From assembly GCA_019348475.1 (NCBI GenBank), contig JAHWJJ010000010.1, forward strand, positions 1 to 22,250: a stretch of 22,250 bases of DNA, read 5' to 3'. The notes beneath the pieces were generated by a model, which ran no database searches, was not told the origin of the DNA, and saw nothing but the letters and a program-made list of their open reading frames with translations. Of this stretch, positions 2,137 through 22,030 are shown piece by piece. Within the stretch, counting starts at the first letter, position 1; each line of letters opens with the position of its first letter. The position numbers and the translations under genes were made by a program. This DNA comes from Gemmatimonadota bacterium. GTDB lineage: Bacteria; Gemmatimonadota; Gemmatimonadetes; Longimicrobiales; Longimicrobiaceae.

Positions 2137-3136
2137 GGACGGCAATCGGCCGCGGGTGCTGCTGCTGGCCACGGGCGGCACCATCAGCATGCAGGTAGAT
2201 GCGGAGCAGGGCGGCGCCGTCCCCAAACTGACCGGGCGCGAGATCATGGACGCGCTGCCGGGGGTGGAGCGGGTGGCGCGCGTGGAGGTGCGCGAGTTCG
2301 GGCGCTACCCGGGTCCGCACATGACGATCGAGCGGATGTGGGAGCTGCGCGCCGCCATCCTGGGCGCGCTGGAGGAGGAGTTCGCCGGCGTGGTCGTCAC
2401 GCACGGCACCGATACGCTGGAGGAGACGTCGTACCTGCTGGACCGCTCCCTCCCGGCCGAGAAGCCGGTGGTGATGACGGGCGCCATGCGCAACTCCACC
2501 GAGCTTTCGTGGGACGGCCCCGCGAACCTGATGGCGGCCATCGAGGTGGCGGTGGCGCCCGAGGCGCGGGGCCGCGGGACGATGGTGGTGATGGACGAGG
2601 AGATCGTGCAGGGCGCGGAGGTGGTGAAGACGCACACGGAGGCGGCGGGCACCTTCCGCTCGCCGAACTGGGGCCCGCTGGGGGTGACCGACAAGGGCGA
2701 GGCGCTCTTCTACCGCGAGTCCCGCCGGAAGGCGCCGCTCACGCCGGATGCGCCGGCGCTGCCGGTGGACCTGGTAAAGATCGTGGCCGGGGCGGATTCG
2801 CGGCTGCTGGAGGCCAGCCTGGACACGGGCGCGCGCGGCATCGTGCTGGAGGCGCTGGGGCGGGGGAACGTGCCCCCGGCCGTGCTCCCCGGGGTGCAGC
2901 GGTGGGTGGACGCGGGCCGGCCCCTGGTCATCACCTCCCGGTCGCTGCGGGGGCGGGTGCTGGACACGTACGCCTACCCCGGCGGCGGGCACGTGCTGCG
3001 CGACATGGGCGCCATCTTCGCCGACCATATGACGGGGCAGCAGGCGCGCATCGAGCTCATGCTGGCCATCGGCGTGTACGGGGACGACGTGGAAGCCATC
3101 CGCAACGTGGTGGAGGCGGGGCGCTACGAGCACTGA
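2129..3136 (+). CDS. ansA: L-asparaginase (asparaginase/glutaminase family)
   Basis: The 335-residue protein has all landmarks of bacterial L-asparaginases, which hydrolyse L-asparagine to aspartate and ammonia. ATGGTIS (14-20) holds nucleophile Thr15; THGTDT (91-96) holds the Thr94-Asp95 pair; Lys167 in VVKTHT matches the third catalytic residue. There is no signal peptide, so a cytoplasmic enzyme is expected. The GTG at 2129 lies inside the end of the dehydrogenase gene (8-base overlap) and follows a GGGGAG ribosome binding site at suitable distance. The released ammonium could be reassimilated by the glutamine synthetase encoded at 6201. The symbol is given at family level; sequence alone does not separate the type I and II biochemical classes. 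The 3' end of this gene recurs in decayed form at 4094-4126. Confidence 0.93.
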   Translation: MAEDGNRPRVLLLATGGTISMQVDAEQGGAVPKLTGREIMDALPGVERVARVEVREFGRYPGPHMTIERMWELRAAILGALEEEFAGVVVTHGTDTLEETSYLLDRSLPAEKPVVMTGAMRNSTELSWDGPANLMAAIEVAVAPEARGRGTMVVMDEEIVQGAEVVKTHTEAAGTFRSPNWGPLGVTDKGEALFYRESRRKAPLTPDAPALPVDLVKIVAGADSRLLEASLDTGARGIVLEALGRGNVPPAVLPGVQRWVDAGRPLVITSRSLRGRVLDTYAYPGGGHVLRDMGAIFADHMTGQQARIELMLAIGVYGDDVEAIRNVVEAGRYEH

Positions 3137-6200: not shown

Positions 6201-8408
6201 ATGCCCAGGACAACCGCCCGCTTCGACACGCTGGCCGCCGCCCGGGGGTGGGAGGGCGAGGCGCGCAACGGCGCCGCCCGCTCCGCGCCCCGCGCCGCCG
6301 CCGAGCCCATGGACATCGAGACGCTGTTCGGCCAGCACACCTTTGGGCTGGCCGAGATGCGCGGCCGCCTTCCCAAGCAGGTGTACAGGGCCATCCTGCG
6401 CACCCTGGAGCACGGCGACCCGCTGGACCCCTCCGTCGCCGACGTCGTCGCGCTGGCGATGAAGGAGTGGGCGCTGGAAAAGGGCGCCAGCCACTTCACG
6501 CACTGGTTCCAGCCGCTCACCGGCAGCACGGCCGAGAAGCACGACAGCTTCATCACCCCCAACGAGGGCGGCGGCGCCGTGGCCGAGTTCAACGGCAAGG
6601 AGCTCATCCAGGGCGAGCCCGACGCGTCGTCGTTCCCCAGCGGCGGCCTGCGGGCCACCTTCGAGGCCCGCGGCTACACCGCGTGGGACCCCACCTCGCC
6701 CGCGTTCATCGTGGAGACGGGGGCGGGGTGTTACCTGTCCATCCCCACGGCGTTCGCGTCGTGGACGGGCGAGGCGCTCGACACCAAGATCCCCCTGCTG
6801 CGGTCGATGAACGCGCTCGCCACGCAGGCCCGGCGCGCGCTGGAGCTGTTCGGCGTGCGGGACGCGCGGGTGACGGCCACCTGCGGGCCCGAGCAGGAGT
6901 TCTTTCTGATCGACCAGGAGTTCTTCTACCGCCGGCCGGACCTGGTGACCACGGGTCGCACCCTGATCGGGGCCAGGCCGCCGCGCGGACAGGAGCTGGA
7001 GGACCACTACTTCGGCTCCATCCCCGACCGCGTGCTGGCCTTCATGATGGAGGTGGAGCGCGAGCTGTACCGGCTGGGCGTGCCCGTGAAGACGCGGCAC
7101 AACGAGGTGGCGCCGGGGCAGTTCGAGATGGCGCCCATCTACGAGAACGCCAACCTGGCGGCCGACCACCAGCAGCTGATGATGATCACGCTGCGCAAGG
7201 TGGCGCCCCGCTTCGGGCTGGCGGCGCTGCTGCACGAAAAGCCGTTCGCGGGGGTCAACGGCAGCGGCAAGCACCTCAACTGGTCGCTGGGCACCGAGAG
7301 CCAGAACCTGCTGGAGCCGGGCGACACGCCGCACGAGAACATGCAGTTCCTGTTCTTCTGCACGGCCGTGCTGCGCGCGGTGGACCGGCACCAGGACCTG
7401 ATCCGGGCGTCGGTGGCGCACGCGGGGAACGACCACCGGCTGGGCGCCAACGAGGCGCCGCCCGCCATCATCTCCGTCTTCCTGGGGACGCAGCTTACGG
7501 ACGTGCTGGAGCAGATCGAGCGCGCGGGGACGGCCACCGAAAGCAAGCAGGGCGGGCTGCTGGGGCTGGGCAGCCCGGTGCTGCCGCACCTGCCGCAGCA
7601 CGCCGGCGACCGCAACCGCACCAGCCCGTTCGCCTTTACGGGGAACAAGTTCGAGTTCCGCGCGCCGGGCTCCTCGCAGTCCGTCTCGTTCCCGGCCACG
7701 GTGCTCAACACCATCATGGCCGAGTCGCTGGACGAGCTGAGCACGGCGCTGGACGCGGAGCTGGCGAAGGGGGTGAGCTTTGAGGACGCGCTGAGGCGGC
7801 TGATCGCGGAAGAGGTGCGGCGGGTGAAGCGCATCGTCTTCAACGGCGACGGCTACAGCCAGGAGTGGCAGGACGAGGCCGCCCGGCGCGGCCTGCTGAA
7901 CCTGCGCACCACGCTGGACGCGCTGGAGACGCTCCCCTCGGACAAGAACCGGGCGCTGTTCGAAAAGTACGGCGTGCTGACGCACCGCGAGCTGGAGAGC
8001 CGGCACGAGATCGCGCTGGACCAGTACTTCAAGACGGTGAACATCGAGGGCGAGACCACGGCCGACATGGCCGGCACCATGATCCTGCCCGCGGCGGTGC
8101 GCTACCTGAACGACCTGGTGGCGGCGGCGGACCGCACCCGCACGCTGGGGGTGGAGACGCGCGGCCTTACGCGCACGGTACAGATCGTCAACGAGCTGGT
8201 GGACGAGATGCGCGACGCGCTGGACGCCCTGGTGGCCCAGAACGCGGAGCTGGGCGGCGAGACGGTGCACAGCAAGGCGTACCACGTGCGCGACAACGTG
8301 GTCCCCGCCATGCTGCGCGTCCGCGCCGCCGCCGACCGCCTGGAAAAGGTGGTGCCGGACGACTACTGGCCCCTGCCCACGTACCGCGACATGCTATTCG
8401 TGAAGTAG
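6201..8408 (+). CDS. glnN: Type III glutamine synthetase (GlnN)
   Basis: A 735-residue enzyme catalysing ATP-dependent formation of glutamine from glutamate and ammonia. Its length matches type III enzymes (about 700-730), not the 450-residue type I. Type III blocks are clear: [20 protein letters not shown] (98-117), [20 protein letters not shown] (137-156), the metal-site Glu pair in GPEQEFFL (229-236), NEVAPGQFE (301-309), and the ATP/glutamate-site [15 protein letters not shown] (351-365). The helical C-terminal region is complete. About 35 Ala/Arg-rich residues precede the conserved start, so a downstream ATG at 6309 is an alternative; ATG 6201 has GAGG at 6193-6196. It follows the Lrp gene and is closed by a strong terminator. 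It probably recaptures ammonium, including that released by the asparaginase upstream. Confidence 0.95.
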
Positions 8409-8434
8409 CGCGGATCGGGATCATCGATGCAGGA

Positions 8435-8466
8435 GAGGGCCGCCCGCGAGGGCGGCCCTCCTTTTT
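8435..8466 (+). terminator. Strong Rho-independent terminator after glnN
   Basis: AGGGCCGCCC (8436-8445) pairs perfectly with GGGCGGCCCT (8450-8459) across a GCGA tetraloop, with one further G-C pair outside. A CCTTTTT run follows (T-run 8462-8466). The position 27 bases after the glnN stop is typical of intrinsic termination. Confidence 0.92.
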
Positions 8467-8976
8467 GCACGCGGAGCCGCGGGGAATCATACGGATCGCG
8501 GAGGATCATTCTGGAATCCGCCCCCGACAGGCCGTCATCCCCGATCGGCCGCAATAGAAAGTCGTCAGGGGAAGGCGGGCAGCGCTGGATGGATGGGCGT
8601 GCGACGGCCGGAGGCGGACCGGATGGGATCGGCAGGATGCAGGCGTCCCCTGGTAAAGAGAATGCTGCCGGCGAAGGGACGGGATCCGCATTTTTTCTGG
8701 ATGGGCACGGATCTAGGTGGCGCGGCGCATGCCCCGCCGGGGCACATCACACCCGATTGCGATCTTTAAAAGGCCGCCCCGGCTGGACGGGGGCCAACAG
8801 TGTGAAGACGGCCGCGTCATCAACCGGATGAGGAAGACGGTGTCGAAAGCACGAACTCGGGCTGGAAGTTCGTGCCAGAACTTCTGTTTTTGAGATCTGA
8901 TAGAACAACGAGGCGCGGAAGGACATCTCCCCCCGCGCCGCGTTCGTTTCTTCCGCGGCTCCGTGCGAAGGTCGTC
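8467..8976. other. Intergenic region between converging genes; overlapping hairpins, no gene found
   Basis: Short frames here are unconvincing on both strands. The main structure is at 8849-8891, where two mutually exclusive hairpins can form. Arms 8849-8857/8867-8875 make a 9-base-pair stem; arms 8865-8871/8878-8884 make a 7-base-pair stem followed by TGTTTTT (8885-8891). The second looks like a plus-strand terminator well downstream of the glnN terminator; the first could end the minus-strand gene at 8977. A small RNA ending at 8891 is possible but unsupported by a clear promoter. Confidence 0.45.
8865..8891 (+). terminator. Plus-strand terminator-like hairpin with T-tract
   Basis: GAAGTTC (8865-8871) pairs with GAACTTC (8878-8884), followed by TGTTTTT. 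The stem is AT-richer than the glnN terminator. It overlaps an alternative stem (8849-8875) that would serve transcripts from the opposite strand. Confidence 0.4.
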
Positions 8977-14301: not shown

Positions 14302-14317
14302 GGCGGGTTTCGGCCCG

Positions 14318-14399
14318 CGGGTTGAAACCCGCGGCTGGAACTGCCATAAGCCCGGTCTCGGCTCGGTACACTCGCCGAACCGGGCTTCACCTGCTCCGG
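14318..14399 (+). repeat. Dispersed double-hairpin repeat, copy B
   Basis: Same orientation as copy A, 17 bases after the purH stop. Hairpins are CGGGT-TGAA-ACCCG (14318-14331) and AAGCCCGGT (14348-14356)/ACCGGGCTT (14379-14387). The long stem may help end the purH transcript, though there is no T-run. Confidence 0.85.
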
Positions 14400-14430
14400 G
14401 CGCACAGGTCCTCCGCGGACCACACGAGAC

Positions 14431-14505
14431 GGGGTTGAAGCCCGGTTCGGCGAGGAACGAGCCGGGACCGGGCTTGTCGCCTTCCCAGCAGCGGCTTCAC
14501 CCGCT
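14431..14505 (-). repeat. Dispersed double-hairpin repeat, inverted diverged copy C
   Basis: The reverse complement matches copies A and B with a few small gaps, clearest in the long stem (AAGCCCGGT...ACCGGGCTT) and its inner TCGGC/GCCG-type pairing. Lying head-to-head with copy B, it could pair with it into one large hairpin downstream of purH. Confidence 0.65.
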
Positions 14506-14540
14506 CATCACGGGCTGGGCCAGGGCGAAGCCCTTACTCC

Positions 14541-14612
14541 CGCACTTTCGCACTTTCGCACTTTCGCACTCACGCACTCACGCACTCACGCACTCACGCA
14601 CTCACGCACTTT
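14541..14612. repeat. Octamer microsatellite before larC
   Basis: Nine perfect 8-base units: three CGCACTTT, five CGCACTCA, one CGCACTTT. The array ends four bases before the predicted -35 of larC. Two unit types in blocks suggest slippage or unequal crossover. Confidence 0.95.
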
Positions 14613-14616
14613 CGAG

Positions 14617-14645
14617 TTGACTCCGCCCCCGCGCGCGCCTACCTT
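14617..14645 (+). promoter_or_regulatory. Predicted sigma-70-type promoter of larC
   Basis: TTGACT (14617-14622), 17-base spacer, TACCTT (14640-14645). Spacing and -10 are nearly the same as for purN. The leader to the GTG at 14773 would be about 120 bases, GC-rich, without an evident riboswitch. Confidence 0.55.
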
Positions 14646-14772
14646 GCCGCGCCCCTGAAACCACGCGCCGCAGTTCGTTGCTTCCGCCCCGCGCGGCGGC
14701 GAGGAACGTGCGGCGCGGCGCGTGAAGTGACGCGCCGGCCGCGGCCGGCCTGTACCGATCGAGGAACGCGGC

Positions 14773-15945
14773 GTGCGCGGACTGATCTTTGATCCCTTCG
14801 CGGGGATCAGCGGCGACATGACCGTCGCCGCGCTGCTGGACCTGGGCTTGCCGCTGGAATGGCTGCGCTCCTTCGTGGCCGGGCTGGACCTGGGCGACAT
14901 CCGCGTGGACGCGGAGCGCGTGGACCGCAAGGGGATCGCCTGCACGCGGCTGGTGCTGGGGCTGCCGCACGAGCACGCGCACCGGCACCTGCACCACGTG
15001 GTCCGCATCATCGAGGGCACCGGCGTGGCCTCCGAAGTGCGGGACCGCGCCGTACACGCGTTCACGCTACTTGCGGAATGCGAGGCGGCGGTGCACGGTA
15101 CGACGGTGGAGAAGGTGCACTTTCACGAGGTGGGCGCGCTGGACGCCATCGTGGACGTGCTGAGCGCCGTGGCCGGGTGTCACGAGCTGGGCGCGGTCTC
15201 GTTCTACACACGGCCCGTGGCGCTGGGGCGCGGGTGGGTGGACATGGCGCACGGGCACTTTCCCGTCCCCCCGCCCGCGGTGCTCAAGCTGCTGCAGGGC
15301 GTGTCCGTCCGCGACCCGGAGTTCGAGGGCGAGTGCACCACGCCCACGGGCGCCGCGCTCATACAGGCGCTCACCGGCGGCGCGCCGCCCCCGGCCACGG
15401 ACACGCCGGTGGCCAGCGGCTTCGGCGCGGGGACGCGCGACCCGCAGGACCGGCCCAACTGCCTGCGGCTGGTGCTGATCGAGCCGCAGGGCGGGGCCGA
15501 CGAGGGCATCGTCGTCGTTCAGTGCGACGTGGACGACCTTACGCCCGAGTACGTGCCCACCCTGCTTCAGGCGGTGCTGGACGCCGGCGCCGCGGACTGC
15601 AGCGCGCAGCCGCTGGTGATGAAGAAGGGCCGGCCGGGGGTGCGGATCGAGGCGCTGGCCAGCCCCGAGCGGCTGGAGGCGGTGAGCGCCGCGCTGTTTC
15701 GCGGCGGGTCCACCATCGGCCTGCGCTTCTGGGCCGCGGGGCGGCGGGTGCTGCCGCGGCGGATGGAGACGGTGGCGTGGCGGGGCGAGGAGATCCGCGT
15801 AAAGCGCAGCGCCCTTCCCGGCGGGGGCGAGCGGGCCAAGCCCGAGTTCGACGACGTGGCCCGCGCGGCCGCCCGGCTGGGGATGACGCCGCTGGAGGCG
15901 TACCGCGCGCTTCTGGCGGACGGGGTGGCGCGCGAAGGGCGGTAG
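14773..15945 (+). CDS. larC: Nickel-pincer cofactor biosynthesis protein LarC (nickel insertion)
   Basis: A 390-residue LarC, the CTP-dependent protein that inserts nickel into the pincer nucleotide cofactor of lactate racemase and related LarA-family enzymes. The opening DPFAGISGDM (7-16), the His-rich HEHAHRHLHHV (66-76), VHFHEVGALDAIVDVLSA (115-132) and the TTPTGAAL motif (189-196) are family signatures. The second part (about 238-390; VQCDVDDLTPEYVP, then MKKGRPGVRIEAL) is the LarC2 domain. In Lactiplantibacillus the two parts are split and joined by frameshifting; here they form one uninterrupted frame. GTG 14773 follows GAGGAA at 14761-14766. No larA, larB or larE is in the window, so the partner genes lie elsewhere. 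Confidence 0.92.
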   Translation: MRGLIFDPFAGISGDMTVAALLDLGLPLEWLRSFVAGLDLGDIRVDAERVDRKGIACTRLVLGLPHEHAHRHLHHVVRIIEGTGVASEVRDRAVHAFTLLAECEAAVHGTTVEKVHFHEVGALDAIVDVLSAVAGCHELGAVSFYTRPVALGRGWVDMAHGHFPVPPPAVLKLLQGVSVRDPEFEGECTTPTGAALIQALTGGAPPPATDTPVASGFGAGTRDPQDRPNCLRLVLIEPQGGADEGIVVVQCDVDDLTPEYVPTLLQAVLDAGAADCSAQPLVMKKGRPGVRIEALASPERLEAVSAALFRGGSTIGLRFWAAGRRVLPRRMETVAWRGEEIRVKRSALPGGGERAKPEFDDVARAAARLGMTPLEAYRALLADGVAREGR

Positions 15946-17519: not shown

Positions 17520-18623
17520 ATGCCGCTCTACGACCTGCTTCGTCCGCTCCTCTTTTCGCTCCCGCCCGAGCCGGCGCACCGCGCGGCGAGCGCGGCGCTG
17601 CACGCGGCCATGCTCACGCCCCCGCAGCGCGCCGCCGCACGTGCGCTGCTGCAGGTGCGGGACCCGGCGCTGGCCGTGGAGCGCTTCGGCATCCGCTTTC
17701 CCAATCCTGTGGGGATGGCGGCGGGGTTCGACAAGGCGGGCGGCTCGTTCAACGCGCTGGGGGCGCTGGGCTTCGGGTTCGTGGAGATCGGCACCGTGAC
17801 GGCGCTGGCGCAGCCCGGGAACCCGGCGCCGCGCCTCTTTCGCCTTCCCGCGGACGCGGCCCTCCTCAACCGGATGGGCTTCAACAACCCCGGCGCCGAC
17901 GCGGTGGCGGCGCGGCTGCGGCGCACGCCGGTCGAGCCGGTGCTGGGCATCAACCTGGGCAAGAGCAAGGCGGCGCCGCTGGAGGACGCCGCCGCCGACT
18001 ACCTGCGCACGCTCGAGCTGCTGGAGCCGTTCGCCGCCTACCTGGCCGTCAACGTAAGCTCGCCCAACACGCCGGGGCTGCGGCAGCTGCAGGACGCCGC
18101 GCCGCTCCGCGAGCTGCTGCGCGCCCTGCGCCTCCGCGCGGCGCAGCTCGCCTCCGCGCGGGGGGGAGCTGCCAGGCCCCTGCTGCTGAAGATCGCCCCC
18201 GACCTCACCGACCCGCAGGTGGAAGAGGCGGCCGCGATCGCGCTGGAGGAGGGGCTCGCCGGGGTGATCGCGACGAACACGACCGTCTCGCGCGCGGGGC
18301 TGCGCACCCCGGCGGCGCAGGTGGAGCGGCTGGGCGCGGGCGGCATCAGCGGCGCCCCCGTGCACCGGCGCGCCGTGGAGGTGGTCTCGCTGGTCTACCG
18401 CACCACGGGCGGACGGCTGCCGGTGGTGGGCGTGGGCGGCATCTTCGGCGCGGACGACGCGTGGCGGATGGTGCGCGCCGGGGCGGGGCTGGTGCAGGTG
18501 TGGACGGGGTTCATCTACCGCGGCTTCGGGATCGCGCGGGAGATCAACCGCGGGCTGCTGCACCGGCTGCGCCGCGAAGGGATGCGGTCGCTGGACCAAG
18601 CCGTGGGGGCGGCGCACCGATGA
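17520..18623 (+). CDS. pyrD: Dihydroorotate dehydrogenase, class 2 (quinone-dependent)
   Basis: Oxidises dihydroorotate to orotate in de novo pyrimidine synthesis, passing electrons to the membrane quinone pool. The 367-residue length and the N-terminal helical extension ([20 protein letters not shown]) mark the membrane-associated class 2. FMN and substrate motifs are intact: [10 protein letters not shown] (65-74), EIGTVT (89-94), NRMGFNNPG (117-125), the catalytic Ser181 in [38 protein letters not shown] and [15 protein letters not shown] 17520 is the conserved start; no Shine-Dalgarno is visible. The TGA overlaps the ATG of the hydrolase by four bases (ATGA), implying co-translation. It is the only pyrimidine gene here. 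Confidence 0.95.
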
Positions 18624-19720
18624 TCCCCAGCGTGCGCACCGCCCGCTTTCTGCGCGCCTACCTGCGCGGCGGCGCCGGCCCGGTTCGCGAGGAAGAGACG
18701 CACCTCGAGGTGGGGGGTGAGCGGCGCGAGGCCACGCTGTACCTGCCGCACCGCCCCCGCCCGGCGCCCGGCTGGGTGGTGCTGCACGGGCTGACCGTCC
18801 CCGGCCGCCGCCACCGGGCGATGACGCGCTTCGTGCGCTCGCTGGCGGCCTCGGGCGCAGCGGTGCTGGTGCCGGACGTCCCCGCCTGGCGCGAGCTGCG
18901 CCTGGACCTGGACGCGGCGCGCGCGAGCATCGTCGCGGGCGCGCGGCACCTGGCGGGGCGGCCGGAGGTGCGGCCGGGCGGCGTGGGCGCGGTGGGCTTT
19001 TCCTTCGGCGCCACGCACGCCCTGATGGCCGCCGCGGACCCCGAGGTGCAGCGAGACGTGCGCGCGGTGGTTTCGTTCGGCGGATACTGCGACGTGCGCC
19101 GGATGGTGCGGTGCACCTTCACGGGCGAGCACGAGTGGGACGGGGAGGGGCACGCCATCGACCCGGACCCGTACGGCCGGTGGATCCTGGCGGCCAACTT
19201 CCTTACGCAGGTCCCCGGTTTCGAGGGGATGGAGGACGTCCGCGCCGCCGCGCACGCGCTGGCGCTGGAGGCGGGGCGCCGGGGCGTGATGGCGTGGGAG
19301 GCGGAGTTCGACGCGCTGAAGCGCGAGCTCCGCGCCGGCCTTTCTCCCGCGGGAGCGGAGGTGTGGGATCTGCTGGCCCCGCCGACGGGGACGGTTCCGG
19401 CGGACCTGGAGGCGGCCCGCCGGCTGGCGGATGCCATGGCGGAGGCGATGCTGCAGCGCTTTCCCGGGCTGGACCCGCGGCCGCACCTGCCGGCGCTGCG
19501 CGGGCGCATCATCCTCTCCCACGGCCGGGCGGACCGGCTGATCCCCTACACCGAGACGCTGCGGCTGCAGACGCTGCTCCCGCCGGGGGCGCGCCCGTCC
19601 GTCACCATCACCGGCCTGTTCGCCCACTCCGCGCACGCGGGCTGGATGCACCCGCTGGAGCGCGCCCGCGAATCCGCCCAGTTCATCCGCTTGATGAACG
19701 ACGCGCTCTCCGCGGTGTGA
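18620..19720 (+). CDS. Alpha/beta-hydrolase (dienelactone-hydrolase-like)
   Basis: A 366-residue alpha/beta-hydrolase. The strand-loop [10 protein letters not shown] (53-62) forms the oxyanion region, Ser128 in GFSFG is the nucleophile elbow, the Asp in [10 protein letters not shown] (about 305) and a His in FAHSAHAG (336 or 339) complete the triad. A long helical insert (about 190-285) forms a lid. No signal peptide, so cytoplasmic. Substrate is unknown; esters or lactones are usual for the superfamily. ATG 18620 overlaps the pyrD stop as ATGA, so it is translated with pyrD, but a direct pyrimidine role is not implied. It ends at the tail of the antitoxin remnant, which is convergent. Confidence 0.85.
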
Positions 19721-20109: not shown

Positions 20110-20143
20110 ACGGCCGCCGGGGGCGCGAACCCCCGGCGGCCGT
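20110..20143 (-). terminator. Perfect 14-bp hairpin after the Cys-rich peptide gene
   Basis: ACGGCCGCCGGGGG (20110-20123) and its exact complement (20130-20143) enclose a 6-base loop. It lies 26 bases beyond the minus-strand peptide stop. Only TTGT follows in the minus direction, so it is a likely though T-poor terminator. Confidence 0.6.
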
Positions 20144-20168: not shown

Positions 20169-20318
20169 TCAGCAGGCGTATTCTTCGCAGGTAGCGACGA
20201 TGCACGGGATGCTGCAGTCACGCTCGGTGCAGTCCAGGAGCGCGGCGCCGAAGCGGTCCTCTCCCGCCGTAAACGTCTCCACCTTGAGCTCCGACACGTC
20301 GAGCTTCATCTTGCCCAT
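20169..20318 (-). CDS. Short Cys-rich peptide, candidate RiPP (lanthipeptide-type) precursor
   Basis: A 49-residue frame with GAGG five bases before ATG 20318. The N-terminal 20 residues (MGKMKLDVSELKVETFTAGE) match the leader style KxKLDVxxLxVExF that I know from ribosomal-peptide precursors of Bacteroidota, Myxococcota and Gemmatimonadota, including pinensin-like lanthipeptides. The C-terminal core is Cys-rich: Cys at 30, 35, 39, 44 and 49 (C-x4-C-x3-C-x4-C-x4-C), with Thr31, Ser36 and Thr43 as possible dehydration sites, ending in Cys. Few Ser/Thr are available, so disulfide or other thioether modification is an alternative. No modification enzyme, protease or transporter is in the window: an orphan, or served from elsewhere. 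It is bounded by a hairpin downstream and a divergent gene upstream. Confidence 0.75.
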   Translation of the reverse strand: MGKMKLDVSELKVETFTAGEDRFGAALLDCTERDCSIPCIVATCEEYAC

Positions 20319-20352
20319 CTCTGCCTCACTGTAACGGGGTTCAACGCCGGTG

Positions 20353-21200: not shown

Positions 21201-21504
21201 CCGGGGGGCGCGCGGCACTTCGTTCAGGGGGTGCTGCCAAACGTCTTCACCGCGTGAAGACCGCCAGGAGTCATCCTGAGTCATCCGGCGCTGCGCGGAC
21301 GCGTGTGGGGATGAAAGCGCAGTTCAACCTCCCCCAGGGGTTTTTGGGGGAGGTGCGAGCCTGAGCGAGCGGAGGGGGCGCGGCAGGGAGCCCGCCACAC
21401 CTGCTGAACGCCCGGCCCGCCATGGCCCCTGCAGAGGCAAGCGCCTGTGTGGCGGCCCCCTCAGGATGCCTGGGGGGCTCCTGGGACTGGCTTCATACCA
21501 GCAG
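21201..21504. other. Intergenic region with two hairpins
   Basis: No convincing gene. ACCTCCCCC (21327-21335) pairs with GGGGGAGGT (21346-21354) around a T-rich loop. GCCCCC-T-CAGG (21455-21465) pairs with CCTG-GGGGGC (21469-21478) with one bulged T, 27 bases beyond the stop of the minus-strand DUF6941-like gene. They may end the two convergent transcripts; neither is followed by a strong T-run in the needed direction. Confidence 0.5.
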
Positions 21505-21995: not shown

Positions 21996-22030
21996 CACTC
22001 GGCACTCGGCACTCGGCACTCGGCACTGGG
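21996..22030. repeat. Heptamer tandem repeat
   Basis: Four perfect CACTCGG units and one CACTGGG, directly after the hisD stop on the minus strand. Nearby 21940-21970 has a partly inverted and direct repeated version (gtgccgagtacc, ccgagtacc), so the whole gap could fold. Confidence 0.9.

Follow-up and report, generated by a model that had tools for sequence, protein, structure and literature searches.

The locus examined here raises the question of what a very short gene for a cysteine-rich peptide produces when no gene for a modifying enzyme lies beside it. The window, that is, the whole stretch of DNA analysed, is the entire contig C156, 22,250 bases long; the draft genome to which it belongs has 4.08 Mb, is divided into 504 contigs and is 76.55% complete. 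The first-pass annotation had placed in it a 49-residue gene with a good ribosome binding site, a leader of the KxKLDVxxLxVExF type and five evenly spaced cysteines, the last of them C-terminal. Its coordinates are exact, and the strand, which it did not give, is the minus strand: the reading frame at 20169-20318 starts with an ATG at 20318, ends with a TGA stop and encodes the 49 amino acids MGKMKLDVSELKVETFTAGEDRFGAALLDCTERDCSIPCIVATCEEYAC. Translation bears out the cysteines, at positions 30, 35, 39, 44 and 49, with their even spacing and the terminal Cys, and the leader motif reads as described. A ribosome binding site is indeed present, GTGAGG at 5 bases before the ATG, and is better called moderate than good. 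The G+C content per codon position is 0.56/0.46/0.86 on a contig of 72% G+C, and the high value at the third position is gene-like. The features of the locus are the following:

20169..20318, minus strand: precursor peptide gene, 49 amino acids plus TGA (open reading frame, leader HMM, homologue and paralogues)
20262..20318, minus strand: leader homology region of pinensin type, residues 1-19, MGKMKLDVSELKVETFTAG (leader HMMs; M1, L11, V13 and F16 invariant)
20232..20261, minus strand: variable spacer, residues 20-29, which differs in sequence and length among aligned relatives
20172..20231, minus strand: conserved core, residues 30-49, CTERDCSIPCIVATCEEYAC (T31, C35, S36, C39, T43 and C49 invariant in nine sequences)
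20324..20329, minus strand: candidate Shine-Dalgarno sequence GTGAGG, with the ATG 5 bases downstream (sequence)
20110..20143, minus strand: 15-bp hairpin 3' of the stop codon, terminator-like and without a T run (folding)

The hairpin is strong, none of 200 shuffled sequences giving an equally good fold. The leader may be cleaved off within the spacer, at residues 20-29, which carries no GG motif. Around the precursor gene, Pfam recognizes a dihydroorotate dehydrogenase, a putative glycolipid-binding protein, a DUF6941 protein and a histidinol dehydrogenase; the neighbouring protein encoded at 18620-19720 has no Pfam match. No RiPP enzyme was found by Pfam among the 20 window reading frames scanned, which had been picked by eye from 169 mechanical ones, some likely genes being left out. 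Genome-wide searches for LanB and LanC gave no match on the window contig either, so that precursor and enzymes do not share a cluster and the earlier statement that the window holds no maturation enzyme stands. The window also contains two dispersed repeats, one of about 220 bases (8568-8789) with two copies, 87% identical, on contig C261, and one of about 130 bases (21279-21408) with two copies on contig C72 and a partial copy at the extreme end of C261. A short tandem repeat of CACTCGG units, seen by eye, lies at 21996-22029, with the DUF6941 gene on one side and that for histidinol dehydrogenase on the other.

Taken alone, the peptide has no NCBIfam or Pfam match, even at an E value of 10. 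As a non-circular test of its leader was wanted, an HMM was built solely from foreign leaders, 15 in number (14 distinct), all taken from LanB/LanC loci of other genomes. Among the 880 stop-to-stop frames of four host-genome contigs, the window frame ranks first with this model (25.3 bits, E 4.9e-7), and none of 5000 shuffled sequences reaches it, the best scoring 12.8 bits. The next ranks are taken by two paralogues on contig C72 (15.2 and 13.4 bits), a leader-like peptide on contig C322 (9.1 bits) and an unrelated frame (2.7 bits); the C72 paralogues are thus weak under this model, their scores being also given as 14.6 and 16.0 bits. A model of 66 foreign leaders (64 distinct), a set that excludes host-genome peptides, peptides with fewer than four Cys and peptides without the anchored motif, places the window frame second (26.0 bits) behind a C72 paralogue (26.8 bits), the best shuffle reaching 16.4 bits. 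The source list of peptides has 82 entries, of which at least two (L009_1176 and L079_3800) are not precursors. A third model, of 40 rows and built without the window, C72, P0005 and L008 sequences, gives the window leader 27.0 bits (E 3.1e-5) in a search of the whole host genome. More generally, profile searches in the 21 genomes of the family Longimicrobiaceae revealed that the motif M.KL.LD...L.VESF opens many short Cys-rich reading frames.

These leaders resemble that of the pinensins, for which NCBI holds the model NF038180 (leader_pinensin). When 48 precursors with the leader type were compared with this model, 21 matched at E<=0.01, with a best E value of 4.4e-10; none of the 48 has a Pfam match at the same threshold. 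In another test, on ten precursors, four match at E<=1 and a single one (L030:1501-1719, 24.4 bits) exceeds the cut-off of 24 bits; L004 and L028 fall below this cut-off and P0005 does not match. The window peptide itself gives no match to NF038180 at E<=10 and is not a member of that family as defined, and the two C72 paralogues have no NCBIfam match at all. Judged by its sequence, the window leader is a member of a pinensin-type leader superfamily of the Longimicrobiaceae that is wider than NF038180. Database names give no hint about this family, the 51 homologues of one typical member being called "hypothetical protein" at most.

The part of the peptide that follows the spacer defines a narrower group. 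Protein searches brought together nine sequences with a related core: the window peptide, P0005, a tandem pair on C72 and P0006 to P0010, two of which are named hypothetical protein of Longimicrobium sp. Of these, P0005 also has 49 amino acids, is 59% identical to the window peptide and keeps the leader, the five Cys and every Ser and Thr of the core. The nine members are not independent, as P0007-P0010 share 63-89% identity with P0006 and the two C72 sequences are paralogous; with this restriction, ten positions are invariant in the alignment, the four of the leader and the six of the core listed above. The latter comprise all three Ser/Thr of the 20-residue window core, three of its five Cys and none of its 12 other residues. 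The number of Cys is five in eight of the nine members and six in the remaining one. We read the invariant core residues as three Ser/Thr-Cys pairs, the combination from which rings can be made. The predicted (methyl)lanthionines would be T31-C35, S36-C39 and T43-C49, leaving C30 and C44, which might form a disulfide. The C72 pair (L005:2438-2602 and 2798-2962, minus strand, 54 amino acids) has the core pattern of the window peptide, and the dN/dS between the two is 0.43. A model of the core subfamily searched against 200 genomes of the phylum found matches in two only, the host genome and G017, a near-complete relative; the two matches in G017, and one on contig C285 of the host genome, belong to the leader family at large.

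A first search of the host genome had yielded as paralogues the two tandem 54-residue peptides on C72 and one on C353. With the 40-row leader model, 18 leaders, that of the window included, were found across 14 contigs, none of them on the LanB-bearing contigs C261 and C322. All 18 begin short reading frames with 3 to 13 Cys, and the model contained no core. The same holds for the best 30 of the 71 leaders found in G017, each of which starts a short reading frame with at least three Cys. These 71 leaders are spread over 16 contigs, and a single one has a LanB or LanC match at 20 kb or less on its contig. Counts in other members of the family are at least 149 (G010), at least 150 (G011), at least 147 (G014), 65 (G001), 45 (G007), 11 (G015), 5 (G004) and 1 (G013). 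Among 117 genomes sampled from the order, the leader was detected at E<=1e-4 in ten, all Longimicrobiaceae, and in none of the 96 from outside this family. Some leader peptides have Cys-dense cores with 13 to 18 Cys: L025 (G014:C285), whose core contains repeats of the TCxxTC kind, L120 (contig C105 of the host genome) and L126 (G017:C2). Such peptides are perhaps many-ringed products or metal binders.

The distribution of the leader coincides with that of the class I dehydratase. LanB (PF04738) is present in ten of the 21 family genomes, the same ten that have the leader, and the remaining 11 have neither. If the genomes were independent, such an agreement would have a probability of 1 in 352,716; they are related and not independent trials, and its true weight is lower. 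Within the genus to which the window belongs, seven genomes have both leader and LanB and three have neither. LanC is less restricted, as it occurs in 13 of the 21 genomes, three of which lack both LanB and the leader. It should be mentioned that a model made from three sequences also matched ten of the 21 genomes, but another ten than the LanB set. It missed G013, G015 and G004, in which the leader model found its target, and its matches in G005, G006 and G020, which start inside the model or contain a stop and for which the plus-strand frames lack the leader motif, were not counted.

The host genome carries two LanB/LanC loci, on contigs C261 and C322, so that class I enzymes are available in the same organism. 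Contig C261 encodes a LanB N-terminal protein (LanB-N), a separate elimination-domain protein (Lant_dehydr_C) and a LanC. This LanC resembles the cyclases of LanM proteins, scoring 249 bits with TIGR03897, whose cut-off of 304 is set for a whole LanM, and its zinc-site motifs WCHG and LCHG correspond to a Cys-Cys-His site. The promiscuity of ProcM is linked to its different zinc site. A Cys-Cys-Cys site as a mark of promiscuity was considered for the C261 cyclase and dropped, given that this enzyme has Cys-Cys-His. The C261 LanB is 54-63% identical to the LanBs of loci L077, L078, L079, L080 and L082 of relatives, and the ABC-F gene that flanks it is 82% identical to its counterpart in L079. 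On the basis of these two identities, the C261 locus is very probably orthologous to the L079 locus. The contig ends 189 bases past the LanC gene, within a dispersed repeat, which may be the reason for the break; an end at this place would account for the lack of a visible precursor on C261.

In the relatives, leader peptides are found near the enzymes in five of the eight LanB loci fetched: two in L077, seven in L078, one in L079, three in L080 and one in L081. No leader peptide was found within the sequenced stretch examined around LanB in L082, L083 and L084. In all five leader-bearing loci the LanB is of the same type as that of C261, at 37-63% identity. An ABC exporter gene follows the enzymes in L077 and L078, as identified by Pfam, and in L079, as identified by homology; L078 also has an HlyD-type gene, with a homologue in L079. 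In L081 (G013:C30), the protein encoded at 7599-8846 on the minus strand is LanC-like, with LCCG in place of LCHG, a zinc site of the Cys-Cys-Cys type that is given for prochlorosin-like cyclases; this locus combines the LanC-like protein, a LanB and the sole leader match of G013, a peptide of 80 amino acids with 14 Cys.

The other enzyme locus of the host genome is of a different make:

L075 (contig C322) 6679-14776, minus strand: LanB, LanC and a C39-peptidase protein resembling an exporter, forming a second locus of class I lanthipeptide type

Here LanB is full-length, and the C39-peptidase protein has similarity to ABC exporters. A Cys-rich peptide with a GG, encoded inside the reading frame 14306-14776, belongs to this locus; its leader is weakly L1a-like (12.6 bits, cut-off 22). 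Another peptide of C322, at L075:2624-2785, is weakly leader-like, with scores from 9.1 to 14.8 bits. As to other enzymes, neither MNIO (PF05114) nor YcaO (PF02624) was found in the 76.55%-complete host genome, the same searches being positive in two and five, respectively, of 14 control genomes; LanM (PF13575) likewise gave no match in the host genome, but the control genomes were equally silent. At this level of completeness, another enzyme could be absent from the assembly.

Taken together, we consider it probable that the window gene encodes the precursor (LanA) of a class I lanthipeptide with a leader of pinensin type, modified in trans. Sequence comparison carries this reading: the leader family stands near split LanB/LanC genes in relatives, the host genome encodes 18 such leaders on 14 contigs as well as the split LanB, elimination-domain protein and LanC of C261, and the family genomes that have the leader are those that have LanB. 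The thioether chemistry of the window peptide is what these results predict. According to this scheme, the peptide would be translated and its leader, through LDVSELKVETF, would be bound by the C261 dehydratase, which would glutamylate Thr31, Ser36 and Thr43. The separate elimination protein would then take off the glutamate, and the LanC cyclase would join Cys35, Cys39 and Cys49 to the dehydrated residues, producing three thioether rings, with a possible disulfide between Cys30 and Cys44. An ABC exporter with an HlyD-type partner, like those encoded near the enzymes of relatives, would export the product, and a protease would cleave off the leader. For the role of the product, competition or signalling are guesses.

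Alternative explanations have been weighed against this one. The Cys residues might simply form disulfides in a secreted peptide whose leader serves export alone; five Cys in eight of nine subfamily members leave room for disulfides, and the exporter genes near the LanBs of relatives (ABC and HlyD) would suit such a role. However, disulfides need no Ser or Thr, and the three of the core equal three of the Cys in their invariance; moreover, the same leader is found near LanB and LanC and accompanies LanB perfectly across the 21 genomes. We thus regard a disulfide peptide as unlikely, if the least unlikely of the alternatives. It is unlikely, too, that the peptide is a lanthipeptide precursor served by the C322 system instead of that of C261. 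Contig C322 does offer a complete LanB, a LanC, the C39-peptidase/ABC-exporter-like protein and one weakly leader-like peptide (L075:2624-2785), but it has a GG-type Cys-rich peptide of its own, with an L1a-like leader (a weak match), and the five loci of relatives in which the leader lies near LanB carry a LanB of the C261 kind; the fetched LanBs include no listed full-length relative of the enzyme on C322.

That the leader guides another tailoring enzyme, for instance a radical SAM protein, alone or together with LanB, and that the product belongs to a different RiPP class, would agree with the many leader-family cores of varied sequence that have at least ten Cys. The recurrence of LanB/LanC neighbours, in five of eight loci, and the empty MNIO and YcaO searches of the host genome make this very improbable. 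Least probable of all, and scarcely to be expected, is a decayed or untranslated precursor remnant or a chance reading frame: the moderate ribosome binding site and the lack of any Pfam or NCBIfam match would fit it, but a full-length homologue, 59% identical, retains the leader, all Cys and all Ser/Thr of the core, the G+C of the codon positions is gene-like, the leader scores far above shuffles and the related C72 pair shows a dN/dS of 0.43.

The reading as a lanthipeptide precursor modified in trans had been one of three options of the first-pass annotation, the others being another thioether peptide and a disulfide peptide, and it is now the best supported of them, given the leader family, the enzymes in the genome and their co-occurrence. 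The more general interpretation as a RiPP precursor is likewise supported by these comparisons. The gene had also been called an orphan, which is true of its immediate surroundings; elsewhere in the genome there are paralogues and LanB/LanC genes, and in the two genomes checked scattering is the rule. Two of the checks proposed then, a search for other peptides with this leader and varied cores and a search of the genome for RiPP enzymes, have both given positive results, with many leader homologues on the one hand and LanB and LanC on the other.

This arrangement calls to mind the prochlorosins, for which the available text of PMC10783134 describes scattered precursors with one leader type and diverse cores, apparently served by one or a few enzymes in trans; the first such system comprised 29 precursors, according to the part of PMC12328550 at hand. 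We lean towards the view that the Longimicrobiaceae possess a class I counterpart, in which up to about 150 or more scattered precursors per genome, all with one leader of pinensin type, would depend for their maturation in trans on a single promiscuous split LanB/LanC set or a few of them. Within it, the subfamily of the window peptide would have a fixed function of its own, as its core, with the three invariant Ser/Thr-Cys pairs, is conserved rather than hypervariable.

If this is true, very large natural collections of class I lanthipeptide precursors exist in a soil lineage that is difficult to find in culture, and where they have been counted almost all lie outside gene clusters (one of 71 near an enzyme in G017). 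Genes of this sort are missed by mining the neighbourhood of LanC, as with the distance limit of seven genes given in the available text of PMC7268733. The leader could then serve as a tag for collecting hundreds of natural cores, and the system for testing how a class I dehydratase in split form, together with a Cys-Cys-His cyclase, can accept them.

In titles and opening lines of abstracts from the open-licence literature, subscription papers being outside the scope of this search, no mention was found of class I precursors scattered in this way in the Longimicrobiaceae; such a set is also not described in the available portions of PMC7268733, PMC11251773, PMC10783134, PMC12328550, PMC8692599, PMC11271474 and PMC13101482. 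Longimicrobium terrae has been credited with three lanthipeptide clusters and with RiPPs without known relatives (PMC7291104), and, in the accessible part of PMC11271474, with four lanthipeptide and two RRE-containing clusters. Already known, too, are the NCBI model of the pinensin leader and the prochlorosins as a scattered system, of class II.

Among known systems, the pinensins share with the peptides described here the leader family (NF038180). According to the accessible text of PMC7268733, the LanB of pinensin is split, and LanM-like LanCs go with a precursor family that includes pinensin; both a split LanB and a LanM-like LanC are also encoded on C261. In contrast to the pinensins, the window peptide does not match NF038180, has a different core and is encoded apart from the enzymes, on a contig without them, and its type of leader has here multiplied into many scattered copies. 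The class I lanthipeptides with GG leaders and C39 proteases, to which C322 belongs and whose leader is given as LxLxKx5L in the available text of PMC7268733, likewise have LanB, LanC and a Cys-rich precursor, but the leader motif of the window peptide is different and has no GG. Regular Cys spacing is also a feature of the CefA "Cys-every-fifth" RiPP (NF038108), to which the window peptide has no match and its paralogue on C38 (L028) a weak one (15.0 bits, cut-off 30). With the prochlorosins, as far as the accessible descriptions go, the likeness is one of organization: one leader type, scattered precursors, varied cores and apparent modification in trans. They differ in relying on a class II LanM and a Nif11-type leader, whereas a class I split LanB/LanC is found here, and prochlorosin-like enzymes have a Cys-Cys-Cys zinc site (PMC11251773, in the text available), where the C261 cyclase has Cys-Cys-His.
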